Shown here piece after piece: positions 12,475-36,659 of a DNA stretch of 64,000 bases. This DNA is from Pseudomonadota bacterium (GTDB lineage: Bacteria; Pseudomonadota; Gammaproteobacteria; Xanthomonadales; SZUA-38). The stretch is taken from the NCBI GenBank assembly GCA_039033415.1, contig JBCCCR010000013.1:1-64000 (forward strand), read 5' to 3'. A model generated the notes under the pieces. It was given only the letters and a program-made list of their open reading frames with translations. It did no database searches and was not told where the DNA came from. The number at the start of each line of letters is the position of its first letter. Within the stretch, counting starts at the first letter, position 1. A program made the position numbers and the translations under genes.

Positions 12475-12483
12475 TACGGAAAA

Positions 12484-12509
12484 TTCAGGATATTTCAGCC
12501 TTAGTTCAG
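12484..12509 (+). promoter_or_regulatory. Triple helically phased TTCAG box (site A)
   Basis: TTCAG occurs at 12484, 12494 and 12505, spacing 10 and 11 bases, all in the direction of the FG-GAP gene 160 bases downstream. The core TTCAGGATATTTCAG is identical to sites upstream of 15628 and 20148. Direct repeats on one DNA face suggest a tandem-binding winged-helix regulator. Confidence 0.55.
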
Positions 12510-12668
12510 GCGTTTCTTTTCACCGGATCACAAACTTGAAACCGTGAATTATGACGGGCCGGAAAGTCGACTCCGAGGCCGATCGTCAAAGTTGCTGACG
12601 GGCAGGAGCTTCACCGGCGATTTATCTGACAACCGTTAACCGATTGTCGCTTAGCTCTGAGGAGTTTC

Positions 12669-15365
12669 ATGAGTTTACGAAGAATTCCGCTAGCTCTAGC
12701 CGTTTCCTCAGCGCTCACCGGATCTGCGACCTGGGCTCAAGAGTCGATTGAACTGCGAGATCTCGATGGCAGCAACGGGTTCATGGCGAAAGGCGGCGAC
12801 TCATTCATCCTCTCGGGCCTTTCAGTGAGCGGCGCCGGCGACGTGAATGGTGATGGTATTGACGACATCATCATCGGCGCGTCTTTCGCCAACCCCGACA
12901 ACAAATTCTATGCCGGCCAAAGCTACGTGCTCTTTGGTCGAAACGCGCCTTTGAGCGGGAGTGTCGAACTCAGCAATCTGGATGGGACCAACGGATTTGT
13001 CTTAAACGGAATTGATCCATATGACTATTCCGGAAGGTCAGTCAGCGGCGCCGGCGACGTTAACGGCGATGGCTTGGATGACGTGATTGTCGGGGCTTAC
13101 CGCGCTGATCTGGGCGGCAAGTCCTTTGCGGGCGAAAGCTATGTCGTGTTTGGCTCCGACACGGGCTTTCCCGCCGGCATCGACCTTGACAGCCTGGATG
13201 GCAGCAACGGTTTTGTCTTGAACGGCATCGAAGCCTTCGATACCTCGGGACGGTCAGTCAGCGATAGCGGCGATGTGAACGGCGACGGTATTGATGACTT
13301 GATCATCGGAGCTGAAAATGCTGACCCGGGTGAAAACAGCTCCGCCGGCGAAAGTTATGTGGTTTTTGGCCGCAGCATTGGCTTTTCCTCTACCATCGAT
13401 CTCGAAAATCTGGACGGGCTTAACGGGTTTGTCCTAAACGGAATCGGAATCGGCGATCGATCGGGTCGCGCCGTGAGCGACGCCGGCGATGTGAACGGTG
13501 ACGGGATCGCGGACCTCCTTATCGGCGCGTATGCAGCCGACCCCGGCGACAATTCGTCCGCCGGTGAAAGCTACGTAGTATTCGGTCGGGACACCGGCTT
13601 TTCCGCAAGTGTTGACCTTGCTGATCTCAACGGCACCAACGGTTTCGTCATGACCGGCATCGACGCAGGCGACCGCTCCGGACTCGCCGTGAGTAGCGCT
13701 GGTGATTTGAATGACGATGGCTTCGATGACCTGATCATCGGTGCAGATTTAGCCGGCCCCGATAGCCGGCCCTTAGCCGGTGAAGGCTATGTCGTGTTTG
13801 GTCGCGCCACTGGCTTTTCTGCGAGCATTGACCTTGGCAGTCTGAATGGCAGCAACGGTTTCACGCTCATCGGCGCGGACAGTAACGACCGTGCCGGCCA
13901 CAGCGTGAGTGGCGCTGGCGATGTGAACGGCGACGGCATAGCAGACCTCATCATCGGCGCAAGCCGCGGCGCCCCCGACGGCAACGGTTTCGCTGGCGAA
14001 AGCTACGTTGTATTTGGTCGGCGTACAGCTTTTCCCCCGAGCATAAGCCTAGGCGATTTGAATGGAGCCGATGGTTTTGTCATCAACGGCGTCGACCCGG
14101 GTGATGCATCGGGAGTTTCGGTAGGCGGTGCCGGCGATGTCAACGGCGACGGTATCGACGACCTCATCATTGGCGCCAGCGGCGCCGACCCGAATGGAAT
14201 CTCGGGGGCCGGCGAGACCTATGTTGTTTTTGGCAACGCAGCGCCGGCAAGTCTTGGTGATACGGCCTTCCTGTTCGACGAGCTTGAGGACGACACCAGC
14301 GCCAGCGGCAGTCGCCTCGACTTTAGCGTGGCGGCCAGCTACCTGGACGTTGATCCATTTGGCGGTCTAGCGATCGTGGATGTTCATTCCGTGGCCAGCG
14401 AAGGGCAGTGGCAATATTCCCTGGACGGAGTCAGTTGGCTCAACCTATCCAGCAACACCAGCGATACATCTGCCCAGGTCCTGTCGAGCGAGTCGTTTCT
14501 TCGCTTTGTGCCCGCCGCGAACTTCACAGGCCAACCTGGCCCACTCAGCGTGCGGCTCTGGGATGGCCGCTGGCGGCAGCCGGGCAGCAACGTGAACATC
14601 ATCAACGCGGTCGGCGCCCTCGGGGGCTTTTCTACCGACGACCACCTGCTGGACGTTACCGTCAACATCACGCCGGTGAATGACGCCCCCAGCTTTGCCG
14701 CGAGCAATCCACCAACGGTAAACGAAGATCCAGACGGCGTCACCGTAGGGAGTTGGTCGGCCTTCAATCCAGGCCCTGGCGAGGGTCAACAGTTTGCGCT
14801 GGCCTACCAGGTGGCCAGTGTTTCCAACCCGGGCCTGTTCTCGATACTCCCTACCATCGACACCCTCGGCAACCTGGTCTATGACACGCGTCAGGATGTA
14901 AGCGGCACCAGCACCTTTGACGTTCGGGTGGTGGATTCCGGCGGCATGGCCAACGGCGGTGTTAACTTCTCCGGGTTTCAGACCTTTACGATCACGGTAA
15001 ATCCCGTGAACGATCCGCCGAATCTGATTGCCGAAAACCCGCCGGCGAGCAGCGAGAACGACGGGCCACAAACGGTCTCGAACTGGGCCCGCGTCGACGT
15101 CGGCGCACTGGACGAGGCCGGCCAGGAGGTCAGCGTGAGCGTGAGCGAAGTTTCCAACCCGGCGCTGTTTACGGTGCCACCGGCGGTGGATGCCAACGGC
15201 ACCCTTACGTACACCGCGGCTCCTCAGAATACTGGCACATCCCGCTTTACCGTCATCGCCAGCGACAACGGCGGTACGGCAAACGGCGGCGAGAATGCTT
15301 CACAACCGCAGCAATTCGAAATCACGGTGCTGGGTGAAGTCGTGTTTACGGACGGCTTTGAGTAG
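12669..15365 (+). CDS. Exported FG-GAP beta-propeller protein with VFTDGFE tail
   Basis: An 898-residue protein with a signal peptide (MSLRRIPLALAVSSALTGSA, cleavage near TWAQ) and a strong GAGGAG ribosome binding site. Residues about 28-520 hold seven FG-GAP/integrin-alpha repeats, each with a calcium loop of the DVNGDGIDD type and a GESYVVFGR strand. They are predicted to form one Ca-binding beta-propeller. Three Ig/cadherin-like domains follow, two beginning with PVNDAP or PVNDPP, a signature of cadherin-like bacterial surface modules. The last eight residues are VVFTDGFE. The protein at 40201-42888 on the other strand has the same architecture and nearly the same length. It probably acts outside the cell in adhesion or matrix binding; no enzymatic residue was noted. 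Confidence 0.88.
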   Translation: MSLRRIPLALAVSSALTGSATWAQESIELRDLDGSNGFMAKGGDSFILSGLSVSGAGDVNGDGIDDIIIGASFANPDNKFYAGQSYVLFGRNAPLSGSVELSNLDGTNGFVLNGIDPYDYSGRSVSGAGDVNGDGLDDVIVGAYRADLGGKSFAGESYVVFGSDTGFPAGIDLDSLDGSNGFVLNGIEAFDTSGRSVSDSGDVNGDGIDDLIIGAENADPGENSSAGESYVVFGRSIGFSSTIDLENLDGLNGFVLNGIGIGDRSGRAVSDAGDVNGDGIADLLIGAYAADPGDNSSAGESYVVFGRDTGFSASVDLADLNGTNGFVMTGIDAGDRSGLAVSSAGDLNDDGFDDLIIGADLAGPDSRPLAGEGYVVFGRATGFSASIDLGSLNGSNGFTLIGADSNDRAGHSVSGAGDVNGDGIADLIIGASRGAPDGNGFAGESYVVFGRRTAFPPSISLGDLNGADGFVINGVDPGDASGVSVGGAGDVNGDGIDDLIIGASGADPNGISGAGETYVVFGNAAPASLGDTAFLFDELEDDTSASGSRLDFSVAASYLDVDPFGGLAIVDVHSVASEGQWQYSLDGVSWLNLSSNTSDTSAQVLSSESFLRFVPAANFTGQPGPLSVRLWDGRWRQPGSNVNIINAVGALGGFSTDDHLLDVTVNITPVNDAPSFAASNPPTVNEDPDGVTVGSWSAFNPGPGEGQQFALAYQVASVSNPGLFSILPTIDTLGNLVYDTRQDVSGTSTFDVRVVDSGGMANGGVNFSGFQTFTITVNPVNDPPNLIAENPPASSENDGPQTVSNWARVDVGALDEAGQEVSVSVSEVSNPALFTVPPAVDANGTLTYTAAPQNTGTSRFTVIASDNGGTANGGENASQPQQFEITVLGEVVFTDGFE

Positions 15366-15544
15366 CACCCAAGACCGAGAACGAAGGCGGGCCGCTACTC
15401 CTGGGAGCTACTCTCGCTAGGGCCAAACCATGAATAGACTGACCCAAGAAGTAAGCCACCAAAGCTTGTTTACTCTGTCCCTTTCACTTGTTGATTGCTC
15501 AGATTGAGGAGCGTAGAAGAGGTGCAACGTCTGTGGTGCGACTT

Positions 15545-15570
15545 TTCCGAAACTTTTCAGGATATTTCAG
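15545..15570 (+). promoter_or_regulatory. Triple phased TTC[CA]G box (site B)
   Basis: TTCCG at 15545 and TTCAG at 15556 and 15566 are spaced 11 and 10 bases, ending 58 bases before the ATG of the next gene. The stretch CTTTTCAGGATATTTCAG is shared with the site upstream of 20148. Confidence 0.55.
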
Positions 15571-15627
15571 ACGGGTTTACGCAGCGGCGCGTGGTAGCGT
15601 CGAGCTGTCTCATCTTTGGGAACCGAC

Positions 15628-17688
15628 ATGATTGGGATGGTCTGCGTTTTAGCGATTGGGATTGCGGTTGTACCTGACCCGCTTAGATCGGTGTCAGCCC
15701 CGCCAGCGCCATCTGGGCCGATAATCAACCTGGACGATCTGACGGACCCAGTCGAAATCGTCCGGGTCGGAGATGTTGTCTCGTCTAACTTCCAGCCCGT
15801 GGGTGGCCGCTACGACAGGTTTTATCAAATCCAGCTCAACAACAACGGCCAGTTGGCGTTCCATGCCCGACTGACTGATACGGACGAGGGCGAGCTTGAT
15901 GACACCGGTCTCTACGAGGTTTCGGTCAATATTGGGACGGGTTTTGTCCCCCTGCTCGCCCCGGTCGTCCAGATCTTTCGCGAAGGGGATTCAATCTCCA
16001 TCGGCGATGAAGATTACACCGTCGCCAATCTCCCCATTACCTGGCAATGGCGGCTGCAGGATCGTCCGCTACTACCACCGGACCTGATTGGTCCAGCCGC
16101 CCTGCCCCGCCTGGGAATCGCCGCGCTATTAAATATCAGCGACCCCCCCGGACCTAATCTGGTCTTGCGGGATGATCAGGACCGCTGGCAGCTTGTGGCC
16201 CGAAATTTCGAACCTGCGCCAACCGAGGACGGAGATCTCATTCTCAGCACAGGGAAAATCAGCGCGCCTTACGATCGGTTTCAGCAAAGGGGTTTTACTT
16301 TCCAGACGGACCTTTTCAATACCCCCGGTGGCAACACCGACGACCGCGCAATTTACCGATTTGAGCCTCCCACGGGTGGTCAGGTAGATAGTCTCAGGCA
16401 AGTGGCAAGAACTGGCTCGCTGTCAGGGGGTAATTCCGGTGAGCTCATTGCCGGCATTAGCGGACTCCAGGGCAACGCGAGTGGGTCGCTTGTTTTTTAC
16501 GGTGAGAACGATTCCGACGATCCGGACACCAGCTGGAGCATCTACTTCCAAGACAGCGCCTCAGAGACGTTTCGACGCGTGTTCGGCGCCGAGGACTTTG
16601 CGCCTTCGGAAGGACTTGAGGCGTTCCGGTTTCAGCGCGCCTTTGAGCTTACGCTAAACAACAACGATCACATGGGCTTTCGCGGCCTGCTCATTCGAGA
16701 TGACCCGGCCACAGGCTTTCCGGAACTCTCGAGTGGCCTCTATGTGGCCACACCCTTTGGCGCGATTACAGAGGTGGTTGCCGAGGGTCAGCCCAGGCCG
16801 AACGACGGCGGCCCATTCCCCTCCTTTCGGGGCGGAGGGGCCGGCCCGGCAGCGTTTAACCAACTCAATCAGTTTGCTTTTCGAGCCAGCGACGGCGTGT
16901 TTCTGGCATCAGCTGACGGGACCGTCGAGCTTGCCCGCGAAGGCAACCTGTACGAAGGCAACGTCATCGACCGCTTTTTCAATCCGATGATTAACGATCA
17001 GGGGTTGGTCTTGATTCGAGCGATACTAAACGTAGGGACCATCCCGGACCCGGATCCGGACGGCGGCATCATTACGCTGCAGGAGGAAGTATTAATCCTG
17101 ACCGACGGCGTGGACTACGCGACGGTCGCTCGTCAGGGCCAGGAAATCGGGTCGCAGGTTGTGGACGACATTCTCGGCTACGAGATGAACGATCACGGTG
17201 CTGTGGTCCTCGTCGTCCGGTTTGAAAACGTTGTCGACGCAATTTTACGGTGGCGCCCACGATGGGGCTGGCGGTCGGCCGCCGGGGATGGCGTCTGGGA
17301 CAATCCCGCAAACTGGACCTTCAGCTTGCCCCCCAATCTTGATAGCAACGTTGTGATTGAGGCACCCACCGACATCCGCGTCGCGGGCCCCGAGGCCAAC
17401 ACCCAAGTGAACTCTCTGTGGCTTGGTCAGAGCCTAAGCGCAGTCACCGCGGTCGTCGGCGAAGGTGCCATCACAACCACCGAGGGATTGATGATTGGGC
17501 CCAACGGGGTTTTGGAGGTCGCCGAGAACAAGAGGGCGACACTTGGCGGCCCGGTATTTAATGATGGCGTCATTCAGGTTGACGACGGCGGACAGTTGGT
17601 CATTGCCGGCCTGCTCGCCGGCAACGGCAGGGTTTCCGGGGTAAACGGCACCGTGGTCATTGAGGGAGGCATCGCTCCCGGGCGATGA
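15628..17688 (+). CDS. Exported NxxGxxAF tandem-repeat protein, C-terminus apparently missing
   Basis: About 686 residues from the ATG at 15628; a TTG four codons earlier is less likely. A hydrophobic leader (MIGMVCVLAIGIAVV) is followed by repeated N-x-x-G-x-x-A/V-F strands such as LNNNGQLAFHARL, LNNNDHMGFRGLL, FNQLNQFAFRAS and MNDHGAVVLVV. These define the 'choice-of-anchor tandem repeat NxxGxxAF' family of beta-propeller-like surface proteins. From about residue 540 there is a dockerin-free solenoid start (DGVWDNPANW, then GLLAGNGRVSGVNGTVVIEG). It stops at GGIAPGR without the F-x-x-GFE tail of its neighbours. In related proteins this solenoid continues with an 'LxIxGDVTLxxxAxLEI' module, which here is found alone in the gene at 20148. 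Confidence 0.8.
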   Translation: MIGMVCVLAIGIAVVPDPLRSVSAPPAPSGPIINLDDLTDPVEIVRVGDVVSSNFQPVGGRYDRFYQIQLNNNGQLAFHARLTDTDEGELDDTGLYEVSVNIGTGFVPLLAPVVQIFREGDSISIGDEDYTVANLPITWQWRLQDRPLLPPDLIGPAALPRLGIAALLNISDPPGPNLVLRDDQDRWQLVARNFEPAPTEDGDLILSTGKISAPYDRFQQRGFTFQTDLFNTPGGNTDDRAIYRFEPPTGGQVDSLRQVARTGSLSGGNSGELIAGISGLQGNASGSLVFYGENDSDDPDTSWSIYFQDSASETFRRVFGAEDFAPSEGLEAFRFQRAFELTLNNNDHMGFRGLLIRDDPATGFPELSSGLYVATPFGAITEVVAEGQPRPNDGGPFPSFRGGGAGPAAFNQLNQFAFRASDGVFLASADGTVELAREGNLYEGNVIDRFFNPMINDQGLVLIRAILNVGTIPDPDPDGGIITLQEEVLILTDGVDYATVARQGQEIGSQVVDDILGYEMNDHGAVVLVVRFENVVDAILRWRPRWGWRSAAGDGVWDNPANWTFSLPPNLDSNVVIEAPTDIRVAGPEANTQVNSLWLGQSLSAVTAVVGEGAITTTEGLMIGPNGVLEVAENKRATLGGPVFNDGVIQVDDGGQLVIAGLLAGNGRVSGVNGTVVIEGGIAPGR

Positions 17689-19858: not shown

Positions 19859-20085
19859 GGTTTCAGGACCTAGTGCCAGGGCCTGTTCACCCCAGCTAAC
19901 AGTTTCTAGTCATGATCACGACGAGTGAAAAAACTTCGACGTACGCCTCGGTCCCTAGCCGGCAAGATCTACAGCGCGGTCAGGCGAGCCGGGCTATAGA
20001 CGACCGGCGGCCCGCACAGCGAGCTAAGGTTATCGAGACTCCTTACGGCTCTCTAACCGTGGACCCTAAATCAGGAAATCTCAGC

Positions 20086-20111
20086 TTCAGGGACTTTTCA
20101 GGATATTTCAG
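20086..20111 (+). promoter_or_regulatory. Triple phased TTCAG box (site C)
   Basis: TTCAG at 20086, 20097 and 20107 (spacing 11 and 10), with the same CTTTTCAGGATATTTCAG core as site B, ends 37 bases before the ATG at 20148. This is the cleanest example on the plus strand. Confidence 0.6.
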
Positions 20112-20147
20112 GATGGGTCGAACCGTGCATCGTGCTAGCTTGCCCGC

Positions 20148-20624
20148 ATGAAGCGATCTCGAAACGCCATCCCGTTTTTTTTGAGAGGAAACTACTGCAC
20201 TGGAGCTTTGGGCTTATTTGCTGCCGGAACGCTATCGGCTGTCGGAGCAGTGTTCGCGCAGCAGGGCCAGGCGGAAACGCTGACGATCGAATCGGACGTC
20301 ACCCTGAGCCAGTCAGCGTTTCTTGAGATCAAACTGAACGGAAGCGCACCTGCGCAGTTTGACCAGCTAGTCGTTCAGGGACCGCTCTCCCTCGGTGGTG
20401 AACTTCGGGTTCAGCTTTTGGCGGATTTTGTTCCCAATCCGAGCGACACTTTTGAAATCGTAGAGGCCGAATCTCTGTCGGGCACCTTCAGCAATGACGT
20501 TAATGGCAGGATCGTGCTCGCGGACGGAGGCCGAAGCATGCAAATCAGCTACTCCGCCACGGGCGTTACGCTGAGCGACTTTCTCGATCCCAATTTCCTA
20601 TTCGGCAACGGCTTCGAAGATTAG
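20148..20624 (+). CDS. Small exported single-module protein with FGNGFED tail
   Basis: A 158-residue protein with a signal peptide (GALGLFAAGTLSAVGAVFAQ). It has one beta-rich module, LTIESDVTLSQSAFLEIKLN through DTFEIVEAESLSGTF. This is the type of segment that normally ends autotransporter-like or solenoid proteins ('LxVxGDxxLxxGSxLEIEIxGxxxxxFDxLxVxG'). The tail is NFLFGNGFED. A comparable module occurs inside the 2.3-kaa protein (FGRLVVTGDAQLDGSLFVSL). It looks like the missing end of the NxxGxxAF protein at 15628-17688 given its own leader and promoter. It is useful as a minimal carrier of the C-terminal motif. No function is known. Confidence 0.75.
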   Translation: MKRSRNAIPFFLRGNYCTGALGLFAAGTLSAVGAVFAQQGQAETLTIESDVTLSQSAFLEIKLNGSAPAQFDQLVVQGPLSLGGELRVQLLADFVPNPSDTFEIVEAESLSGTFSNDVNGRIVLADGGRSMQISYSATGVTLSDFLDPNFLFGNGFED

Positions 20625-20633
20625 CGCGTCGGG

Positions 20634-22659
20634 CTAACTTTCGAAACCATTCAGAAACACGAAGTTGTCGTCTTCAACCCGTTCGGCGGATCCAGCATCG
20701 CAAGGCTCGCCGCGCGGCACATCCCGTTGATCGACAGCCAGGCAACCGGTTGCAGCGTCAACCAGAGGACTGCTTATCCTTGGGAGATGGATCACGCGGT
20801 CTGAACCAATACTGGCAAGCGGGAGTATTTCAAGATCCTCCGCCACGCGGTCGTCAGAGTTCGAGACCAGGCAAGAGGTGTCCTCAACCACGTTCCCTCC
20901 CAACGATTCCGGTACGCTGCCGGAAAAGAACAGCGAACACGGGCCGGCGACGGCGCTGTTAGTAAAGGTTGCCGTAGTCCCGATCAGCTCGATCGTGGGG
21001 CCCGGGGTAGTGCCGAGAAATACCTCCGGTCCTGCAATTGTCACGTGTTCAAGCTGAGCATTCCCGAAACCTCCCACAAACAGCGCCGTTGCGCCGTCGG
21101 ACCGGTTTCCGCTCATGGTGCTGTTGACCGCCGTGAGGGACCCACCAAACTGGGTAACGCCACCGCCGTTGTTCCCCGCGCCGTTACGGTAAATGCTGCT
21201 TTGAGAAATGAACAGGCTTGAATCTCTCAAGTAGATTGCGCCGCCCGAGTTCTCAGCCTCCTTGCCGACAAGGGTACAGCCGGTGAGTTGCAGGTTACTA
21301 TCCCGGGCCCATATTGCTCCACCCTGTCCCGCGTTTAGGGTGCCGTCGTCCTCGACCCAATTGTCGGCAAAAAAAAGTTTTCGAGCTGAATTTCAGCAAG
21401 TTCAGCGACGAGAGCAGCTCCCCGGGCGACAGAGCCGCCACCAGTGCCCAAAACGGTCAGCGATCGAATAACCATATCCTGACTGTCGATGACAGCGAGC
21501 CCCGAGTGGTCGCTCTGAGTGCGATCGATGGTGAGGTTCTCAATAGTACTTTCGCTGATGTCGCTAAGGGTCACGCCTGTACGCAGTCCTGAGATCTCAA
21601 GGTTGGAAATCTCGACAACGGAAGCGTCAAAAACCTCGATCCCTACGCCTGTGGAAAGGCTGCGAACCGAGGAGTCGCTGAGGCTAAAGCGTCGCAGATC
21701 CTCGGCGTGGATGGTGGACGCAGTCAGGGGATTGACGTGTCCATTGAACCGGAATGTGGCGCCGACCACATTCACTTCGCCTCCCATGGCGTAAATTCCG
21801 CCCCCCTGGCGCGGAGCGCTATTGAGGGTATTGAGACTAACCGTAGAATCTTCCAGCCACAAAATCCCGCCCTCGCTGAACAAACCGCCCCCCGACTCCA
21901 GGGATCGGTTCCGGCTTACCAGTGAATCGACCAACCTGACCTCAACATCAGCGCCGATACACAATCCACCACCGCGGCCGAGTACGCTCGCCGTGTTATC
22001 GGTTATCTCAGAGTCTTCAATGTGAACAGGGCCGTTGTGGAGCGCCATGCCGGCACCAGCACACGGGAGGCCCGAGCCCTGGCCTTCTGCTAGATTGTCG
22101 CGAACCACCGAGTCGATCACCCGGAGTCGGAAGGCTGGCTCGGTGGCGCTGGTCGCCGGTTGCACCGTGATTCCCGCTCCCATGACATTACCCGTGAGCT
22201 GGTCACCATCACGCGCTGGAGTTCAGCTCGCGCGTTAGCCTCCCCGGACACCACAACTGCGCCGCCGGTGATATTGGTGAAACCAGTGACCGTCATATCC
22301 TGGAGCTTAAGACTGCCTCCTGCCCGAATATCAAATGCTGCGCTCCGGTAGGTTATCGCTGCAGCCACGAGGGTTTGATCCCTGCCGACCCCATTCACGG
22401 TAATGTCGCTTCGAATGACGGGCACGGCGCCGGTGTTCTCCAAACGAAACGTATCCGCCGTCAACACCACGATGTCGGGGCCGGTGCTGGTGTTCGCCAG
22501 GTCGATAGCGCCGGTCAGCGAGCAGTCCAACGGAGCGTCGGTACAGGCCGAGGCCTGCGGTGCGTGATCTGTCCGGTCCACGATCAGGGTCGCTGCCCCT
22601 GCCGGCGCCACGGTTATCAGGCCGACAACCGTCAGCAGGCTACGTGCTGATGTGCCCAT
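20634..22659 (-). pseudogene. Frameshifted CSLREA beta-helix protein with FLNGFES tail
   Basis: Three minus-strand frames (22659-22117, 22183-21335, then a frame ending at 20634) together align collinearly with the intact 675- to 687-residue paralogues. Part 1 holds the signal peptide (SLLTVVGLITVAPAGAATL) and the LDCSLTGAI motif. Part 2 is the central beta-helix. Part 3 is the end with AVDQRDVPRGEPCDAG and NFVFLNGFES. The first shift lies near 22180-22190, where one base appears lost between the SSRVMS and GAGITVQP segments. The second falls exactly on a T8 tract (minus strand, about 21369-21376); beyond it the correct frame resumes as ADNWVEDDGTLNAGQGGAIW. Two shifts suggest decay, although the homopolymer one could be phase variation or an assembly error. 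Confidence 0.8.
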
Positions 22660-22905
22660 CTAGTCGATTACCTCTTGGCGACTGTTGGGTTTTTGGCAGC
22701 GACCGCCTCCGACGTCCTGAACAACTTGTGAATTAGTCTGAGTTTTTCCGGAACTCGGCAAAGAAGCCGTAAGGAAACGCTCCCCGGTCTTCTGGTGACT
22801 TAATGTCCCCAAAGTGATAGCCGGGCAAGCGAATGCCCAAAACGACAGACAAAACAAAATTCGCCACCGATGACTGCAGTTTTTGTTAGCCGATGATGTG
22901 GGCAT
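22660..22905 (-). CDS. Short leader-like ORF abutting the beta-helix gene
   Basis: An 81-codon frame with a signal-peptide-like start (RWRILFCLSFWAFACPAITL). It ends in TAG directly followed, in the same frame, by the ATG of the beta-helix pseudogene at 22659. A phased box lies 65-90 bases upstream. It may be a real leader peptide, or the old N-terminus of the same gene separated by a stop. The low-complexity remainder has no recognised family, and coding status is uncertain. Confidence 0.3.
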   Translation of the reverse strand: MPTSSANKNCSHRWRILFCLSFWAFACPAITLGTLSHQKTGERFLTASLPSSGKTQTNSQVVQDVGGGRCQKPNSRQEVID

Positions 22906-22970: not shown

Positions 22971-22995
22971 GAAATATCAGGAAACATTGTGAATT
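22971..22995 (-). promoter_or_regulatory. Phased TTC box (site G, weaker)
   Basis: On the minus strand TTCAC, TTCCT and TTCAT occur with exact 10-base spacing (GAA at 22971, 22981 and 22991 on the plus strand), including GATATTTCAT, close to the GATATTTCAG core of sites A to C. It lies 66 bases upstream of the ORF start at 22905. The block sequence is poorer than elsewhere. Confidence 0.35.
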
Positions 22996-25178: not shown

Positions 25179-25190
25179 ATTGCTCTCCCA

Positions 25191-25214: not shown

Positions 25215-25253
25215 CAGGCTGGAACACAATCCGGCAGGAATCCTGATCTAACT

Positions 25254-26263: not shown

Positions 26264-29206
26264 TCAGCCGCCTAGCTTCATTTCGAAGCCAATGAAAAAT
26301 CTTCGGCCGTAGATATCGTAGCGACCGGGGTCTGTATTGATCTGAGTGGACTCGGCGCCGAGCAGCGGGGGTGCGTTTTCCAATACGTTCGCTACGCCCA
26401 CGGATAGCCTTGATCGCTTCGAGGTTTCGAATTGGATCGAAACATCAACGTAGTGCTGATCGTCCACCGCAGGTATCGCAAGTACGGGTTCAGGAGCGCC
26501 GGCCGCCTCGGCGAATACGGGAGCGAGGTTAGTCACGCTCGACAACCAACGCCAGCGTATCGCGCCGGCAAACCGACCGTTGTCGTAACGCATCGTCGCG
26601 GTTGCTAGCTGTTCCGGAAATACGGCGCTCACCGAACCCGAGCATGCGGTCTCGAACCCGCCGGCGCAATCGATGAGCGGGCTCAGCGCACTGGCAGCAT
26701 TACTGAACTCGATGTAGTGGGTGCCGCGTAGGTCGATCGACAATTCTGTCCCAGGAGGCCCCATCCAAGCGGGCGCTGCCCTCGCATAACCCAGATAGGC
26801 GTCAATCCCGCGAACTCTGGCAACCGAATTGTTGAGCGGCTGGATTGTGACCTCAGAGAGAAAACCATCCGGCCGGCGGCTTATCAAACCGCAAACGCTG
26901 CTTTGTGGGTTCTGTTCTAAAGCACACAGCGTAAACGGATCACCAGCAACATCGATGGCGTTGTCTATGTCGACCGAAAAATAGTCCACACCCAGTCGCA
27001 GCCCATTGGACACATTGAGAGCGACGTCCGCGCCAAGCGTTATGGTCCGAGCGCGTTCCGGATCGAGACTGGGATTACCCCGAGCCACGCTTGTGAAGGG
27101 TAGCAGCGCGCTGTCGGTCCCGCTGCCGGGGGCGCCGTAGACGCCTAACTGGGACGGGTCCATTCCCTGAGCAATGCAGACATCGGCTAATCCCCGACCG
27201 ACCGGGTCGTTCGCGGCCAAGCAGAAATCGATGCCTCCCGATAGGACCATTTCGTTGACCGATGCAGGGGTCGAGAGGTCTTCGATCGCTGGCGCTCTGA
27301 CGGCTCGTTGAACCATGCCTCGAAAACGAATCCGTTCATTCGGAAGCCATTGGATACCGCCTTTCCAACTCCACACTCCGCCGATAGACCCGTAGCGGGA
27401 GTAGCGCACCCCGAGTTCCAACTCGATGCGTTCCGCCAGCGGTTTGGCCGCCACAAGGGGTACTAGCAACTCCGCAAAGGTTTCATATACCTCTGCGTCA
27501 GCTGTGAGCGGTGCGCCTGAAACGGTGAAACCGCCAAGATCCCCGGCTTCTAGTATGGGGCTGGGGCGATAGGTGCTGGAGTTATGTCGAAACTCCAGAC
27601 CCGCGGACAAGCCGATATCCCCAACCGGCCCGCGCTGCAGCAAACCGGTTGCGACAAAGGCGGCGGCGTGCTGACGGGTTTCCAATCGGTTCCTAATGCC
27701 ATCAACGCGAATGAAGTCGGCAGCCGCCTGGGAGAGATTGCCTTCGCCAAATACGTTGACAGGCACGCAGCCCCCGGTCGGATCCAAGCAGCCGCCGGAG
27801 AGTGGGTCGATTAACAGACCCTGGCGAAACCGCGATAGGGAGATACCGTTGCTGAGTTCAAAGAACGCGTCGCTACGATCATAGGAATAGTATGCGTCGA
27901 GCGCCCAGTCTGAGGCTATGTCTTCTTGAAAACCCAAGACCGTCCGATAGTTTTGAGACTGTCGTGGGACGGTTCTGGGACCCAGCTCCGTGAGGCGTTT
28001 GGCGAAAAACACTTCGGCGATACCGTCGTTGTCCCCGTCGAAAGTGGTGCGCAGCTGTTGCCTCGTTGGGGCATCGAAGAACGGTGAATCTATGGAGAAG
28101 GAGATAGGTTCCCGGATATTGGTGATCGGGAACTGCAGTTGGGTCGACACGTCTGAATACATGAATTCAAAGTAGAGCTCGGTCCCCGAGTCCAGCTCGA
28201 AGTCGAGGATTGTGCCCGTAGAAAAGCGGGTCTGCTCCGTTTGTATCGTGACGTTCTGTGCCGTGTTGTAAAAATCATCCAGCGAGAACATCCGCACCGA
28301 ACCGTTTTGGTTAAAGACAGCGTTGCCCAAGGTGCCATCAGTCTCTAGCAGCGGAAAAAAGACGATGCCTTCGGGAATGACGGGGGACCCCGCTACAAAA
28401 AGTTCCCCGGTCGTGCGGCTTTCCGCAAACAACTGGCTGGTGAAGTCTCGGTCGCTGCCTCGCAGAGGCGCCCGATTGAGATAGTCAAAGTAGGCCATTA
28501 CTCTGCCGCGGCCCTTCGCAAAGCTTGTGCCGGCCGTCAGGTTTCCATTCACAGACTCACCGTCGCCTTCCCCAAAGATATCGAATCGGCTGCCAACCTC
28601 CACGCCGTCAAAGTCGTCCCGGAGTATAAAGTTCACCACGCCTGCGATGGCGTCGGACCCATATACCGTCGATGCACCCCCGGTTACCACTTCGATACGT
28701 TCCAGTAGCGCGCTGGGAATGACGCTGACATCAACAGCGCTGCGTGAGCCAACCCCGGTGCTGGAGCCTGCCGGCCCCAGCCGCCGACCGTTCAGCAGCG
28801 TCAGCGTTCGGGCGGGCCCCAGGCCCCGCAGATCTACGGTCGCGGTAGCGTCGCCCCCAAACGTGGTCGAGCGACCTTGACCCGGGACAAACTGGGGCAG
28901 CTGATTGAGAAAGTCCTCGACGCTGAGGTCAGCAAATTCCGCCAGCTCCGCCCGCGGGTAAACAACCACCGGACTCGCCGCGCGGGCATCCGGGCGCGCT
29001 ATCCGCGTCCCGGTAACGACAACTTCCTCAATCGAGTCAACGGAGTTTTCCGAGGACGAGTCATCCGCCTGGATCGGAGATGCTGCCAGGAGGATGCACC
29101 CCGCGACCACCAGCAGTGCGGCTAACTGTTGGGACGGCGTCCTGTCCTGCTCGCTGCGTCTCAAACTGCTACCGGGGCAGGTTGGTCGGAAATTCAAGCG
29201 CAGCAA
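26264..29206 (-). CDS. TonB-dependent outer-membrane receptor
   Basis: A 980-residue receptor with a late signal sequence (LAALLVVAGCILLAASPIQA) after an unusually long N-terminal extension. The TonB box region is IEEVVVTGTRIARPD. The plug domain follows (about 70-220, with VDLRGLGPARTLTLLNGRRL and VEVVTGGASTVYGSDAIAGV), then a 22-strand barrel ending FFIGFEMKLGG. It imports a ligand across the outer membrane using TonB energy; the plug style (VTGTRI, GASTVYG) matches the large receptor class for saccharides, peptides or other organic nutrients rather than classic siderophore receptors. The start overlaps the end of the upstream regulator gene by 38 bases, so the two are translationally coupled. 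The internal FIGFEM near the end is ordinary barrel sequence, not the FxxGFE tail. Confidence 0.92.
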   Translation of the reverse strand: MLRLNFRPTCPGSSLRRSEQDRTPSQQLAALLVVAGCILLAASPIQADDSSSENSVDSIEEVVVTGTRIARPDARAASPVVVYPRAELAEFADLSVEDFLNQLPQFVPGQGRSTTFGGDATATVDLRGLGPARTLTLLNGRRLGPAGSSTGVGSRSAVDVSVIPSALLERIEVVTGGASTVYGSDAIAGVVNFILRDDFDGVEVGSRFDIFGEGDGESVNGNLTAGTSFAKGRGRVMAYFDYLNRAPLRGSDRDFTSQLFAESRTTGELFVAGSPVIPEGIVFFPLLETDGTLGNAVFNQNGSVRMFSLDDFYNTAQNVTIQTEQTRFSTGTILDFELDSGTELYFEFMYSDVSTQLQFPITNIREPISFSIDSPFFDAPTRQQLRTTFDGDNDGIAEVFFAKRLTELGPRTVPRQSQNYRTVLGFQEDIASDWALDAYYSYDRSDAFFELSNGISLSRFRQGLLIDPLSGGCLDPTGGCVPVNVFGEGNLSQAAADFIRVDGIRNRLETRQHAAAFVATGLLQRGPVGDIGLSAGLEFRHNSSTYRPSPILEAGDLGGFTVSGAPLTADAEVYETFAELLVPLVAAKPLAERIELELGVRYSRYGSIGGVWSWKGGIQWLPNERIRFRGMVQRAVRAPAIEDLSTPASVNEMVLSGGIDFCLAANDPVGRGLADVCIAQGMDPSQLGVYGAPGSGTDSALLPFTSVARGNPSLDPERARTITLGADVALNVSNGLRLGVDYFSVDIDNAIDVAGDPFTLCALEQNPQSSVCGLISRRPDGFLSEVTIQPLNNSVARVRGIDAYLGYARAAPAWMGPPGTELSIDLRGTHYIEFSNAASALSPLIDCAGGFETACSGSVSAVFPEQLATATMRYDNGRFAGAIRWRWLSSVTNLAPVFAEAAGAPEPVLAIPAVDDQHYVDVSIQFETSKRSRLSVGVANVLENAPPLLGAESTQINTDPGRYDIYGRRFFIGFEMKLGG

Positions 29207-31028
29207 ACTGTTCGTCGGTCAGGCTGAACTCGGAGCGGAGTTCGTGCCAGCGAGGATCAGCAAGGAGCGGCTTGAGCACCGGGTCACGTCCAATCAGGGC
29301 GTGGACCTTCGTCGTCTCATAGTAGACACGCAGCCATCGAAAAGCCGCATCAATGTTCCCCGTGGCGGCGTAAACGAACACGAGACTTAAGGGTTGCTCT
29401 TCCCTCCGTCTGTTGAGTAATTCGAGCGAGTGTTCGTATTCATCCGTCAGCCCCAGACGGTGATAGGCAACAGCAGCGGTGCTCAGCCAGGCCTCAGCAT
29501 TGGGGCGATGGTCCTCGATAAGGCGAAGTGCTTCCTCTACCTCCCCCTGAAGCAACTTAATCTTTGTCAGCTCATGCTTCATGTCCCCGCGGCCCGGATA
29601 AAGCCGCAGCATTGTCTCGACATGCGCCTCTGCGGCTTCAAATCGCTCTGCGATGACGTAAGCGAGCACCATAAATCGCTGGCAAATGATGCAGAGCGGA
29701 TCGTGGGCAACCAGGTATTCCCCTAGCTGTACCGCCTCATCAACCCGACCGACGGTGAGCCAAACTGGAATCGCGCTGCGAATGATATCGACATTGGTCG
29801 GATCTGCCGCGAACGCGACGCGGTAATGGGCCGCAGCGCTTTCGTAGTTCTTGTGGTGAAATAGCTCACGCCACCCCTTCCACGCGTTAGCGATAGGATC
29901 GTCCGGTACGAGCTCAAGGACTCTGTTGGTTACGGTATAGGCGTTCTCGACTGCCTCGTCCAAGGTAGCCTGGTCAGTCAGCCGTTGCTGATAGTACGCG
30001 CGACTCAGCTCCGTCATCGCGCGAATGAAAGTGGGATCTCTCTCCAGAGCTTCCTTCAACAACTCGATGGCGACCGGAAGCTGATCGAGCTCGCGGGAGT
30101 TGATTATTTGCCGCGCATGTCCGAAGAGATTAAAAGTCACAGGATCGGTCACGCTAGTCCCGGATAGAACTCGAACCAAGTCCGCTTGAAGCGAACCTGC
30201 TACGGCGAGCGCGATTTCGGATTGAATATCCGTTGCAGCCTCCAACCCGATATCGAAGGCTTCTGACCAGACATGTTTGTCGTTGCTGGCATCAATGAGC
30301 TGCGCTACAACGCGAACCTCGCCGCCAGATTCACGGACGCTGCCTTCGAGCAAATAACGCGCGTTGAGCCTTTCAGAAATGGTGCGGATATCTGCGTCGC
30401 TGTCCTGAAACGAAAACGATGAGGTCCTGCCGAGCACATGCAGACCCGGTGACTGGGCAAGTCGATGGATGACCTCCTCAGAAAGCGACGCACCGAAGTA
30501 CTTCAGATTTTGCTCGTTGCTAAGGTCAAGAAAAGGCAGTACGGCAATTGAGCTTTTGGGGGGGTTGAAGGGCTCAATCGTTTCGCCGCCGGGCTGCAAT
30601 AGCAGCCAACTCGCCAGGGCGGCAAACGCAACGCCGACCGCTAACACCCAGGTCCGGCGCGGTTGTTCTACAAAAGGCGCTGTAGCGTTGGCGGCGGCCG
30701 GGATAGACGCAACGCTCTGTTCAAAAATATATCCCTGCCGGGGAATTGTGCGGATGATACGTTTGTCTGTGTCACCGATTGCTTTTCGGATTTCAACCAA
30801 ACATTGGGTAAGCGAGTCACGGGTGACCACGGCATCCTTCCAAACCTCGTCGTGAAGCCGATCAATCGTCACGAGGCTGCGGTGGTTACTCAGCAGAACC
30901 TTCAGGACTTCAAAGGACTGGCGCCGTAGCTTGATTTCGCGCTCCTCACTACGCAAAGAATTGCGGCGTAGATCTAATTTGAAGTTGCCGAAACTGTATG
31001 CCTCCGGATTGTCGCGCGCGTCTCCCAT
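29169..31028 (-). CDS. CadC/TolB-like winged-helix regulator with TPR domain
   Basis: A 619-residue one-component regulator. Residues about 10-108 are an OmpR/PhoB-type winged helix (FGNFKLDLRRNSLRS, VWKDAVVTRDSLTQCLVEIR, RTIPRQGYIF). A single transmembrane helix follows near 127-147 (WVLAVGVAFAALASWLLL). The periplasmic part starts with an FlgO/TolB-like domain (SSIAVLPFLDLSNEQNLKYF, then YLLEGSVRESGGEVRVVAQL) and continues as TPR-like helices to the end. Such proteins bind tandem direct repeats while membrane-anchored and sense signals through the TPR part. The downstream overlapping TonB receptor is its probable target. Upstream lies TTTTTCG-N4-TTTTTCG at 31081-31098, exactly the 7-4-7 geometry of PhoB boxes. 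Confidence 0.88.
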   Translation of the reverse strand: MGDARDNPEAYSFGNFKLDLRRNSLRSEEREIKLRRQSFEVLKVLLSNHRSLVTIDRLHDEVWKDAVVTRDSLTQCLVEIRKAIGDTDKRIIRTIPRQGYIFEQSVASIPAAANATAPFVEQPRRTWVLAVGVAFAALASWLLLQPGGETIEPFNPPKSSIAVLPFLDLSNEQNLKYFGASLSEEVIHRLAQSPGLHVLGRTSSFSFQDSDADIRTISERLNARYLLEGSVRESGGEVRVVAQLIDASNDKHVWSEAFDIGLEAATDIQSEIALAVAGSLQADLVRVLSGTSVTDPVTFNLFGHARQIINSRELDQLPVAIELLKEALERDPTFIRAMTELSRAYYQQRLTDQATLDEAVENAYTVTNRVLELVPDDPIANAWKGWRELFHHKNYESAAAHYRVAFAADPTNVDIIRSAIPVWLTVGRVDEAVQLGEYLVAHDPLCIICQRFMVLAYVIAERFEAAEAHVETMLRLYPGRGDMKHELTKIKLLQGEVEEALRLIEDHRPNAEAWLSTAAVAYHRLGLTDEYEHSLELLNRRREEQPLSLVFVYAATGNIDAAFRWLRVYYETTKVHALIGRDPVLKPLLADPRWHELRSEFSLTDEQFAALEFPTNLPR

Positions 31029-31080
31029 GTTTAAAGCAAAGCTCTATTGATGCTCCTGTAGACGGCTCACCTGTAGCGTC

Positions 31081-31098
31081 TTTTTCGGTGATTTTTCG
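31081..31098 (+). promoter_or_regulatory. PhoB-like direct repeat TTTTTCG-N4-TTTTTCG (site E)
   Basis: Two perfect TTTTTCG heptamers (31081 and 31092) lie 11 bases apart, 53 bases upstream of the winged-helix regulator gene but pointing away from it. Candidate autoregulatory site; it could also serve an unproven 67-codon plus-strand frame starting at 31162. Confidence 0.5.
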
Positions 31099-31534
31099 CT
31101 ACCGCAGAGTCCGGCCGGCCTAGATTGGACTCGGCCGCAATATGTCGCGAGGTCTACTGACATGAATAAACGCCCAAACGACTCGTCGCCTGCGACTGGG
31201 CGCTCAATAGGTTCGCGTCCACCGGGTTGGCTGCTTCCATGCGCAGGGCTCACCGATTCCGAGGACGCGTACATTCGCCGAGTAGGTATTTCACGCAGAC
31301 TCCGTGAGCTTTGCCGCTCAAAGCGGCATCCACGGAGCCTTCAGTCAGTTCCTTGCTCCTCTTAAACAGCACTATTATCACCCGAAAGTTGAATCAGCCG
31401 TTTCGCCTTCAAGCTGAGCTTCGATGAAGATTGCTAGTGCCGCAGCGGCGACGCATAGTACTCGGTTCACAGACTTACCGAGCCAATCAGGACGAAGCTT
31501 GCGGAACTACGTTTAACTCCTAGACATTCGCCCG

Positions 31535-31563
31535 TTTTTCGTTCTCTTTTCGCGGATTTTTCG
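31535..31563 (+). promoter_or_regulatory. Triple TTTTCG box with exact 11-bp spacing (site D)
   Basis: TTTTTCG at 31535, TTTTCG at 31547 and TTTTTCG at 31557 place the TTCG cores at 31538, 31549 and 31560, two perfect 11-base steps. It lies about 190 bases upstream of the beta-helix gene at 31752 and points toward it. Confidence 0.6.
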
Positions 31564-31751
31564 TTACTCGCGACGAAGTCCAATCCAATGATACTACTAT
31601 CTCGACTGTCTTTGGCGCGAACCTGAATTCGATAGATTTGAGCATGAGCGATGGTGCTTTCTAAGAGTGACATCAGCCCAGTTCGAATGAGGCATTTGAA
31701 ACGGGGCTTGCGATTCTGACGCACAAATAAGAAAGAACGAAAAGGAGTAGT

Positions 31752-33158
31752 ATGTCCTACTGGCATAAGCAGTTGGCGAAGGCCGCGGTAGGGACCCTGC
31801 TGTGCCCGCCTTCTCTTGCTCAAAACCTAACGGTTGATCGTCTAGACGACGAGCCAGGTGCGGATATTTGCTCAGATTTCATCGCTGCCGATTGCTCCCT
31901 CAGAGGAGCGCTGGCATTCGCTGAGCAAGTGCCGGGTGATCAGTCCATAAGACTGCCCAGTGGAACATACCTTTTGAATTCGGAACTCGCATTAACTTTG
32001 CCAGACCGAGGTTCAACAACAATCGAAGGTGAAGGTGCCGAAACTACAACGGTAGTCGCAAACGTTGGTTTTCGTGTAATGCGCATCGAAACGGGGGACG
32101 TAACTCTGCGCGGTTTCACCATGACCGGTGGTGACGTAAGGAATACGGACATCGACGTTGGCGGGGGACTCTTCATCGGTTCATTACCTGGGGCCAATGT
32201 TCTCCTAGAAGACATGGTTGTTTCTGAAAACGCGAGTCTCGCCAGAACCGGGGCCGGTATTTTTGCAGGGTCTGGCCTGACTGTGCGTCGGTCTAACATT
32301 TCGAACAACAATGGTGGCGGTATTCAGTCGCTGGGCTTCGCCACAATCGAAGACTCTGTTATCACCGAGAATGATGGGTTTGGCGTTGCTTATGAGAACA
32401 ACGGAGAGGTAGTTCGATCCATCATCTCAAGCAATCAAGGGCGAGGCGTGATTGCAGCTTTTCGGGTTACGGTCGAAGACTCTTTTATTGATTCAAACAT
32501 ATCGGCTAGTCGAGACGGTGGCGGTATCCGTGCAAGCGTGGCAACGATACGCCGAACCACAATCTCGCGGAACACGGCACCTAATGGGGCGGGTGTTTTC
32601 ATCGAGTTGCCCTTGGGTTCATTCGACTCGTTGATTGAGAATTCTACGATCTCCAGCAACAGCGTGCCTTTGACGGGCAGAGGAGCCGCAGTAAGTGTGT
32701 CCTCCGGAGTCGTCTTGACGATGAACCATGTAACGATTGCCCGAAACACAGCTTTTGGGGGTGCGGCCATCGACAACGAAGGTCGTATCGTCGCGAGCAA
32801 TTCGATTTTGAGTGCCACTAACAATGTTTGTCGCGGGTCTCCTCTCGTAACCGCAGGAGGAAACATCGACTCTTCGACGAGTTGCCGCCTGGACTTGGAA
32901 GTGGGAGACATTGAAAACATCTCGTTAGCTGAGTTAGCGCTGCTGCAGCTTGGCGACAACGGCGGCATTGCCCCAACTCATTTGCTTGGCGCGCAGAGCG
33001 TCGCCCTAGAGCATGGTCAAACGTTGAATTGCGCAGATAGAGACCAGCTTGGAAATCCTAGAGACGCATTGAGATGTGACGCAGGTGCTCTGCAACTGTC
33101 TATGATGCGCCCCGAATTCCTGTTCGGCGACGGCTTTGAGAGCCAAAACCATCAGTGA
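31752..33158 (+). CDS. Exported CSLREA beta-helix protein with FLFGDGFE tail
   Basis: A 468-residue protein with AAGGAG 5 bases before the ATG and a short leader (AAVGTLLCPPSLAQ). The opening motif is LTVDRLDDEP...AADCSLRGAL, then a compact parallel beta-helix with N-x-x-GGGI turns (about residues 70-380). A choice-of-anchor Q-like stretch (NCADRDQLGNPRDALRCDAG) is followed by the tail EFLFGDGFESQNHQ; eight residues follow the GFE, the longest extension in the set. It is shorter than the three other family members here. Base composition is lower in GC than the flanking chromosome (many AT-rich codons), as in the next gene, which suggests separate acquisition. Confidence 0.84.
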   Translation: MSYWHKQLAKAAVGTLLCPPSLAQNLTVDRLDDEPGADICSDFIAADCSLRGALAFAEQVPGDQSIRLPSGTYLLNSELALTLPDRGSTTIEGEGAETTTVVANVGFRVMRIETGDVTLRGFTMTGGDVRNTDIDVGGGLFIGSLPGANVLLEDMVVSENASLARTGAGIFAGSGLTVRRSNISNNNGGGIQSLGFATIEDSVITENDGFGVAYENNGEVVRSIISSNQGRGVIAAFRVTVEDSFIDSNISASRDGGGIRASVATIRRTTISRNTAPNGAGVFIELPLGSFDSLIENSTISSNSVPLTGRGAAVSVSSGVVLTMNHVTIARNTAFGGAAIDNEGRIVASNSILSATNNVCRGSPLVTAGGNIDSSTSCRLDLEVGDIENISLAELALLQLGDNGGIAPTHLLGAQSVALEHGQTLNCADRDQLGNPRDALRCDAGALQLSMMRPEFLFGDGFESQNHQ

Positions 33159-34742: not shown

Positions 34743-36566
34743 TTAGTTTTCACAGCGCGGGTCGCCACAGATGTACAACTTCAAATCGTCGTTGCCGAAA
34801 TCTCGATAGCTGATGACCGGCAATCCGTCCGGCCGAATGGCGATGCTCGTATCAACACCCACATCTTGCGAATGATCTACGGTGCGGGCATTACCGCTGG
34901 TACAGTTCTCATCAGCGCAACTGTAGACTTTCAAGGCTGCGTTGGAGGTATCGAAATAGCTAACTATGGGATGACCGTTGCTTCCGATTGCAATGGCGTT
35001 TGTGACGCCGACTGTGCCAAGAGAGTCAACAGTTCGTGGATCGCCAGCGGCGCAGCCCTGATCGCGACAGCTATAGACCTTTAGGTCGCTGTTTGTCCGA
35101 TCGAAGTAGCTGATAATCGGCATGCCGTCTTGTCGAATGGCAATGCTGGTATGTCGCCCAACGTCACCCTCGGAATCAAGCGATCTAACAATACCGCTGC
35201 TGCATTGGGAGTTAACGCAATCGAAAACGTTTAGGTTGTCGCCAAAATCAGCCCAATAGCTGATGATTGGAAGTCCGTTTTTTCGTATGGCAATACTTGA
35301 AAACCGTCCAACGGCGCCGGCGTTATCGACGACTCGAACGACTCCGGTAGCGCATTGAGAGTTCTCGCAGTCAAATACATTTAGATTGTTGTTGGTCAGA
35401 TCCCAGTAACTGATTATGGGTCGGTCATTGTCTCGGATCGCAACACTTGGCCAGAATCCGACGCTTCCGGTTCCATCTAATAGGCGGTCAGTACCTGCTG
35501 AGCATGAGTCGTCCGCACAATCGAACAGTCGAAGATCTTCAGCGGTAGCGTCGACGTAGACAATTAGAGGTAACCCGTTACCGCGGAGCGCAAGCCTGGT
35601 GTACTGACCAATTCCCGCTCCTGGCACGAGCGTCCTCGCCTGGCCCTCGCTGCATACTGAATCGAAACAGTCGTAAATCTTTAGACCGCCCGCTCCGGAG
35701 TCCCCGTAACTAACCAACGGCCTACCGTCGCTGCGGACTACGATACTTGTGTAAACTCCTACCTGGCCGTCGGAATCCAGAACAAGTCGTCGTCCAACAG
35801 GCAACGGCACGCATTGCACTGAGCCATCCTGGCTTATCCCTGCCAGATAGAACCCGAGCCTGCAACTCCCGCTGATCCTCAACTGAATCCTGCTAGAGTC
35901 GACGTCCGCCTCGCCTACGCTGCCGTTAACAATTTCGCTGGTTCCAACTGATTCTGCGGCCAATTCGGAGGAAGTTACGCTGGCATCAGCGATTTCGACC
36001 GCTCCAACCGAATCTGCCGCTAGTTTTCCAGCCGTAATTGCGTTGTCCTGGACAGCTGCCGTATCGACAGAACTGTCGGCGAGTTCAGACGAACCTACGG
36101 CATCCAGTGCGATGTCAACTGCCTCGACGGAATTGTTGGCAATTTGAGCACCTCCGACCGCGCCCGTCGCGACCGTCTCTGCGTAAAGGGCGTATGGCAC
36201 CGCAGTGATTCTTTGGCGAGGCAACAGCTCAACAAATGGATCGGTTGAGGCGGACTTACGAACACTGATTCCCAACCAAAGTTGACGACCGTCAAACACG
36301 TCGAAGCCAAAATCGAGCTCAACGCCAAAGGAGCCGTTTGCCACCCGAACGTCATAAAGGGGAAAAACACCCAAGAAATCGTCTGATGTATCGGAGGCGT
36401 AAAGCTCGAACTCGAATTCGAACTGGCCATTGGCAGGTCGTCCATTTTCCGCCAATCGGCCTTCATAGGTGAATAGCGAATCGACCTGTGCCTCACTTGT
36501 CGGACAGGCGATCATCCAAAAACAGACGACGATCCGGACGCATATTTTGAGACTCGCGGCTCTCAC
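34743..36566 (-). CDS. Exported protein: beta domain, AI-x-x-x-EI repeats and Cx4C propeller repeats
   Basis: A 607-residue protein. After a signal peptide (IVVCFWMIACPTSEAQ) comes a domain with FTYEGRLAENGRPANGQFEF, WLGISVR and QRITAVPYALYAET, known from tail-fibre-like and collagen-like exported proteins. Residues about 130-235 are degenerate heptads (SVGAVEIADASVTSSELAAE), probably a trimeric stalk. The remainder holds about seven repeats of about 46 residues with TSIAIRxDGxPIISY and LKVYxCxxxxCxxG, each carrying a Cys-x4-Cys pair, and ends in a half repeat (LKLYICGDPRCEN). A closing half blade at the C-terminus fits a velcro-closed beta-propeller. The paralogue is 54290-56044. There is no FxxGFE tail in either. 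A phased box lies 68-93 bases upstream. Confidence 0.82.
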   Translation of the reverse strand: MRAASLKICVRIVVCFWMIACPTSEAQVDSLFTYEGRLAENGRPANGQFEFEFELYASDTSDDFLGVFPLYDVRVANGSFGVELDFGFDVFDGRQLWLGISVRKSASTDPFVELLPRQRITAVPYALYAETVATGAVGGAQIANNSVEAVDIALDAVGSSELADSSVDTAAVQDNAITAGKLAADSVGAVEIADASVTSSELAAESVGTSEIVNGSVGEADVDSSRIQLRISGSCRLGFYLAGISQDGSVQCVPLPVGRRLVLDSDGQVGVYTSIVVRSDGRPLVSYGDSGAGGLKIYDCFDSVCSEGQARTLVPGAGIGQYTRLALRGNGLPLIVYVDATAEDLRLFDCADDSCSAGTDRLLDGTGSVGFWPSVAIRDNDRPIISYWDLTNNNLNVFDCENSQCATGVVRVVDNAGAVGRFSSIAIRKNGLPIISYWADFGDNLNVFDCVNSQCSSGIVRSLDSEGDVGRHTSIAIRQDGMPIISYFDRTNSDLKVYSCRDQGCAAGDPRTVDSLGTVGVTNAIAIGSNGHPIVSYFDTSNAALKVYSCADENCTSGNARTVDHSQDVGVDTSIAIRPDGLPVISYRDFGNDDLKLYICGDPRCEN

Positions 36567-36633
36567 CTCGCGTTTGGGTCGCTTTCGTAGGACTGTAGAC
36601 GCAGAACATACGATTGGCGACGCCGAAGGATCA

Positions 36634-36659
36634 CGAAAAACTGACTAAATTTCTACGAA
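36634..36659 (-). promoter_or_regulatory. Triple TTCG/TTAG box with exact 11-bp spacing (site F)
   Basis: On the minus strand TTTCG, TTTAG and TTTCG are spaced exactly 11 and 11 bases (plus-strand CGAA at 36634, CTAA at 36645, CGAA at 36656), upstream of and pointing to the Cx4C-repeat gene. Confidence 0.5.

Follow-up and report, generated by a model that had tools for sequence, protein, structure and literature searches.

Phased TTCAG repeat arrays before secreted-protein genes are likely operators of membrane-anchored winged-helix regulators in an order of Gammaproteobacteria

The pho box, the operator of the OmpR-type winged-helix response regulator PhoB, adjoins its promoter. The passages of PMC11358694 drawn on here quote this box as TGTCA-N6-TGTCA and the TcpP site as TGTAA-N6-TGTAA, while an excerpt of PMC8517210 gives the ToxR tox-box as TNAAA-N5-TNAAA. 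CadC has been modelled on a head-to-head pair of TTAnnnnT sites, according to the relevant passage of PMC5430869. Transmembrane transcription regulators are one-component proteins that act from the membrane and are said, in the abstract and outline of PMC10269533, to be widespread. Here we analyse the first 64 kb of contig C13 (57% GC; hereafter the window) from a 6.42 Mb genome assembled into 62 contigs and assigned to the order Xanthomonadales, in which arrays of short direct repeats precede genes for secreted proteins. Judged from sequence, these arrays are likely operators through which membrane-anchored, ToxR/CadC-like winged-helix regulators switch secreted-protein genes.

The arrays resemble the pho box in setting a 5-bp core head-to-tail at 11 bp and in their association with OmpR-type winged helices. 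Unlike it, those of the window and the order have a TTCAG core, mixed steps of 10 and 11 bp and three to four blocks, and their candidate readers are membrane-anchored proteins, not phosphorylated response regulators. With ToxR and TcpP, as the cited passages describe them, they have in common direct repeats at 10-11 bp and membrane-anchored winged-helix regulators, but the TTCAG core differs, the targets are exoprotein genes of environmental bacteria, and a putative TPR/FlgO sensor part replaces the periplasmic domain of ToxR. The regulators further resemble CadC in having a winged helix, a transmembrane (TM) segment and, by prediction, a periplasmic part, whereas the TTCAG arrays run head-to-tail, unlike the CadC model as excerpted in its source. 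Because CadC was modelled head-to-head, the arrays would be expected to work more like PhoB or ToxR sites. The passages of PMC10269533 searched for an operator of the TTCAG-array kind contain none.

The window encodes a cluster of secreted proteins, many of which end in F-x-x-G-F-E (FxxGFE). A preliminary description of this DNA had assigned its phased repeats to a single consensus, TTTTC(A/C)G. They are in fact two motifs, TTCAG and TTTTTCG, and the single consensus had merged TTTCAGG with TTTTTCG. The repeats it placed at 12484, 15545, 20086, 31538, 36634 (minus strand) and 25254-25280 (minus strand), and the pair at 31081, are present at about those positions. A weak site at 22971-22995 is unconvincing, and a better three-block array lies at 22743-22716 on the minus strand. 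The TTCAG-type sites and the genes behind them are as follows.

12473-12510, plus strand: TTCAG-type array of four blocks (TTTACG 12473, ATTCAGG 12483, TTTCAGC 12493, GTTCAGG 12504), 159 bp 5' of the ATG at 12669
12669-15365, plus strand: secreted FG-GAP repeat protein ending in VFTDGFE; putative target
15544-15582, plus strand: TTCAG-type array of four blocks (15544 TTTCCG, 15555 TTTCAGG, 15565 TTTCAG, 15576 TTTACG), the first 84 bp 5' of the ATG at 15628
15628-17688, plus strand: DUF7453 / NxxGxxAF-repeat protein without an FxxGFE end; putative target
20085-20123, plus strand: TTCAG-type array with clear blocks at 20085, 20096 and 20106 and a weak fourth (GGTCGAA), 63 bp 5' of the ATG at 20148
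20148-20624, plus strand: small secreted protein ending in LFGNGFED; putative target
22716-22743, minus strand: degenerate TTCAG-type array, 84 bp 5' of the start of the broken gene 22659(-)
23202-25229, minus strand: beta-helix choice-of-anchor-Q protein ending in LFLDGFEW, sharing 47% identity with the exoprotein encoded next to the C30 regulator; putative target
25242-25280, minus strand: TTCAG-type array of four blocks (25280 TTACCGG, 25269 CTTCAGG, 25259 TTTCCGA, 25248 GATCAGG)
43330-43345, minus strand: two-block site TTTCAGG-N3-TTTCAG, 442 bp upstream of 42888(-) and doubtful given that distance

The arrays before 12669, 15628, 20148 and 25229 comprise three to four blocks at steps of 10 or 11 bp. 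Their TCAG core is better conserved than the T run (ATTCAG at 12483, GTTCAG at 12504), and several blocks in this genome keep TCAG(G) after the T run has been lost (GTTCAGG, ATTCAGG, GGTCAGG). In the window, 6 places have a three-block score of at least 16, versus 0.15 per random window (20 Markov-1 windows), and a score of at least 17 at 3 places versus none in the same random windows.

The motif recurs across the order. We searched 398 genomes of the order for TTCAG-N5/6-TTCAG-N5/6-TTCAG, using the reversed pattern as control, and obtained 92 matches in 63 genomes versus 5 reversed ones; family f8 holds 44 (21 of its 33 genomes), f12 20, f9 13, f2 5, f1 4, f7 3 and other families 3. A control with 13-14 bp steps gave 2 matches in f8 and 5 in f12, and is unusable in f9, where 7-bp tandem repeats abound. 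In genomes of that family (e.g. G011, G050, G222), 7-bp units such as TTCAGGG or TTCAGGT are tandemly repeated at many places, with up to ~100 pattern matches per genome, and these may be a separate story. The neighbourhoods of all 84 distinct sites outside our genome were analysed, and the start of a Trans_reg_C gene lies within 700 bp of 23 of them, compared with 2.3% of positions drawn at random from those loci (238/10439; p ~1e-18 if sites were independent, which those of related genomes are not). This adjacency, far above baseline, lends support to the proposal in the preliminary description that the repeats would be operators of OmpR/PhoB-type winged helices before exoprotein genes.

In f8, 28 of 37 targets end in [IVLM]F...F[ED], versus 10 of 380 other genes. 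The f8 targets form 15 protein families by BLAST, nine of which hold members with this C-terminal motif, and in 15 of the 37 cases the array starts 81-87 bp upstream of the called start codon; -10-like elements, judged by eye, lie downstream of f8 arrays. The ending itself varies among f8 loci L131-L169 (GFE, SFE, GFD, DFD and others), and no NCBIfam model for the motif matched any of the window proteins tested. Outside f8, a winged-helix neighbour or a target with the C-terminal motif is found at 18 of 44 sites. Small secreted proteins of a single family, which we take to be YceI-like, are the commonest target there (9 of 26); the family lacks the F...F[ED] end, so across the order the array goes with regulators rather than with FxxGFE genes. 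A locus of family f12 (G084) and one of Dyella jiangningensis have array and target in common, which makes Lysobacterales/Xanthomonadales the most likely identity of the order. A pan-bacterial scan for three TTTCAG blocks gave at least 119 stretches; since only 4 of the 80 loci listed lie near a Trans_reg_C gene (including one of Dyella jiangningensis, L307, which holds an array and a divergent regulator, and one of a Pyrinomonadaceae metagenome-assembled genome) and only 1 lies before an F...FE gene, we regard most of these matches as chance.

Within our own genome the set is small. Three TTCMG blocks at 10-11 bp steps occur 5 times versus 0 for the reversed control; three of the five lie in the window within 8 kb, and the other two lie inside or across open reading frames (ORFs). 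The exact repeat TTTCAGG-N3-TTTCAG occurs four times, three times in the window and once on C30, where a beta-helix exoprotein gene lies to one side of it and a divergently oriented winged-helix/TPR regulator gene to the other. Scores of at least 15 are reached by 4 of 29 stretches upstream of the genome's winged-helix genes versus 0 of 87 background stretches. Since triples and exact repeats are so few genome-wide, the TTCAG set amounts to a small regulon together with an operator code that recurs elsewhere, rather than to an exoprotein regulon spanning the genome and taking in all FxxGFE genes. The idea of such a regulon, with arrays before most FxxGFE genes, is not supported by the count of five strong triple arrays, three of them in the window, and in the window scan no three-block array with a score of at least 16 precedes the FxxGFE genes 17795, 33297, 39421(-) and 45413(-).

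A wider comparison over three genomes of the family gave a similar association. Scores of at least 14 were found upstream of 15 of 42 long winged-helix genes versus 23 of 194 other genes (p 0.0007), and 11 of these 15 arrays point to the divergent gene; a motif-free phased-repeat score of at least 17 showed a modest excess (9/42 versus 16/194). The congener G001 retains the operators of the C30, C40, C1 and C42 regulator loci, although that of C42, which neighbours what is presumably an AraC-like gene, matches the motif more loosely. Between C40 of our genome (G000) and C108 of G001, array and regulator are kept and the divergent secreted-protein gene is different. Farther along contig C13 (L251, 155000-163000), a winged-helix regulator split over two ORFs faces away from a gene for a secreted protein, and TTTCAG blocks lie 85 bp upstream of the called start of that gene.

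The regulator encoded in the window (29169-31028) probably reads the second motif, whose sites and neighbouring genes are listed here.

29169-31028, minus strand: regulator with an OmpR-type winged helix (31-102), a TM-like segment (126-144) and FlgO and TPR domains; putative reader of TTTTTCG arrays
31081-31098, plus strand: two TTTTTCG heptamers 11 bp apart (31081/31092), beside the regulator gene
31535-31563, plus strand: TTTTTCG-type array of three blocks (31535/31546/31557) spaced by 11 bp, in front of the exoprotein gene 31752
31752-33158, plus strand: beta-helix choice-of-anchor-Q protein with FGDGFE near its end, divergent from the window regulator
34743-36566, minus strand: secreted repeat protein without an FxxGFE end; putative target
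36622-36660, minus strand: TTTTTCG-type array of four blocks (36660, 36649, 36638, 36628), the second TTTAGTC

PF00486 matches the N-terminal winged helix of this protein, hydropathy reaches 2.09 at residue 126, and profile matches place the FlgO and TPR domains after the TM-like segment. Searched against solved structures, its winged helix matches CadC and ToxR chains, CadC (5ju7) being second-best; no named relative of the regulator was confirmed. Among 34 array-adjacent regulator entries (one regulator listed twice), 31 have a TM-like segment after the winged helix (hydropathy >1.6).

A weight matrix trained on only the four TTCAGG arrays of the window was scanned over 443,734 bases of own-genome loci; as these were partly picked for motifs or winged-helix genes, the scan ranks candidates and yields no genome-wide p value. 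The C30 operator came first at 29.2 bits (lowest training site, 29.6), followed by 20.4 bits (C2) and 18.2 bits (C40). Since the C30 operator ranks so far above the others, the TTCAGG set (12669, 15628, 20148, 25229) best fits the C30 winged-helix/TM/TPR regulator as its predicted reader. The genes 12669, 15628 and 20148, unlike 25229, are not paralogues of the C30 target, so gene duplication alone does not explain the shared array. Of the earlier suggestion that the window regulator or a relative controls the set, the relative would stand, whereas control of the whole set by the window regulator is not supported, given the closer match to C30. The preliminary description was right about the kind of site and of regulator, and probably mistaken as to which regulator is involved and how large the set is. 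For the TTTTTCG set (31081, 31535 and perhaps 36660) the probable reader is the window regulator, because phased TTTTCG blocks lie on its own flank. On the plus strand of 31029-31751 (723 bp), TTTTCG occurs 5 times (P 0.0002) and forms 3 phased pairs, as seen in 0 of 5000 Markov sequences. TTTTTCG pairs with one mismatch number 14 in the genome versus 4 in the control; three lie in this same intergenic region, most others inside ORFs, and one (C4) before a protein ending in FADGFD. Exoprotein genes on C37 (next to a winged-helix gene) and on C4 likewise have TTTCG arrays in front of them.

Other ways of accounting for the arrays have to be set against this assignment. That the window regulator reads both kinds of block and controls the whole set seems unlikely: no other winged-helix regulator lies between the arrays, its own flank bears phased blocks, and TTTC at 10-11 bp steps is common to both motifs, but nothing beside it approaches the match of the TTCAGG arrays to the C30 operator, the next scores lie elsewhere, and the genome has 40 Trans_reg_C matches. 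A DNA-binding protein encoded elsewhere, for example a two-component response regulator, is an improbable reader too. OmpR/PhoB-type response regulators do use the same geometry and are many in the genome; however, the array-adjacent regulators of the order are mostly of the membrane type, and none of the four short Trans_reg_C genes (<400 aa) of the genus set, a small sample, has an array scoring 14 or more.

It is very improbable that the arrays are phased T-tracts forming intrinsically curved or UP-element-like promoter DNA that needs no specific regulator, since several blocks have lost the T run and kept TCAG(G), the reversed pattern of equal composition and phasing is rare (5 versus 92), and the operators adjoin winged-helix genes; T runs at 10-11 bp steps do suit such DNA, and for the TTTTTCG arrays a T-tract reading can still be entertained. 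We give almost no credence to the idea that local gene duplication multiplied a single promoter, with selection for a binding site playing no part. The 25229 and C30 targets are indeed paralogous and the 15554 and 20095 arrays have 19 identical bases in common, but no mutual similarity was found among the proteins 12669, 15628, 20148 and 25229, the best local alignments of their upstream regions span the array only, with no long homology outside it, and in f8 the motif recurs before 15 protein families.

Several observations weigh against our preferred reading of the arrays as operators of membrane-anchored winged-helix regulators. In the three-genome comparison the excess at scores of at least 15 is modest (7/42 versus 9/194, p 0.011), although 8 of the 9 controls belong to arrays reported here or to one C2 array. 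The adjacency statistics for the order count related genomes as independent. Outside f8, 26 of the 44 sites lack both a winged-helix neighbour and a target with the C-terminal motif, and part of the 92 matches is therefore chance. No such repeats lie upstream of the protein in G001 that is closest to the window regulator (34%), and the C30 match for 25229 could be inherited, the genes being paralogues. As an order-wide motif, TTTTCG was rejected, with 8 matches versus 8 in the control.

A few further features deserve mention. The exoprotein gene 20634-22659(-) of the window, of the beta-helix type, is split among three ORFs; an intact homologue of 685 aa, with 47-64% identity to the fragments, adjoins the C40 regulator, and the broken copy with its degenerate array at the usual distance offers a natural decay series. 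The small 20148 protein resembles, by eye, the C-terminal part missing from the 15628 protein and has its own signal peptide. An ECF sigma factor adjoins a Ser/Thr kinase-type protein both at window 650-3411(-) and at L094:8103-11014 (contig C3); the C3 pair has TTTCAGGAACTTTCCG near its start, scoring 17.7 bits with the window matrix. A stretch of ~175 bp is common to the upstream regions of 25229(-) and 11532(-) and contains what we take to be the end of a tRNA-Asn gene; ARAGORN found no complete tRNA in the window, and the stretch is possibly the trace of an insertion at tRNA genes.

On the reading we favour, an operator would consist of three to four direct-repeat half sites with the core TTCAG, one helical turn apart and just upstream of the promoter. 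The winged-helix domains of membrane-anchored regulators, each with a winged helix, one TM segment and a presumably periplasmic TPR/FlgO part, would fill this strip head-to-tail and control genes for secreted proteins, most likely by activation of the kind that PhoB exerts at pho boxes. We infer binding, and the pairing of regulator with array; activation is favoured over repression because 15 of 37 f8 arrays begin 81-87 bp before starts, and -10-like elements follow. More tentatively, TTCAG at one-turn steps may be a recognition code shared by membrane-anchored winged-helix regulators that have multiplied within one order, each usually driving a divergent secreted-protein gene. Unrelated exoprotein genes would join by gaining an array, the operator would stay with the regulator while targets are swapped, as between C40 of G000 and C108 of G001, and strict same-face phasing might let tethered domains fill the strip side by side.

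The array family is real and recurrent, it probably consists of operators of a known kind, and its sequence is new; the open-licence literature searched, mostly at the level of listings, yielded no report of the TTCAG operator or of the F...F[ED] C-terminal motif. Membrane-anchored one-component regulators are common, and how they act from the membrane is, in the abstract of PMC10269533, described as poorly understood. Here a candidate operator sequence can be read from genomes and is tied to more than 20 such regulators and to their likely targets, surface or secreted proteins, with natural array variants and one apparently decayed copy available. The arrays define a specific candidate regulon and, in same-face phasing, a rule open to test on how DNA-binding domains held at the membrane may use DNA.

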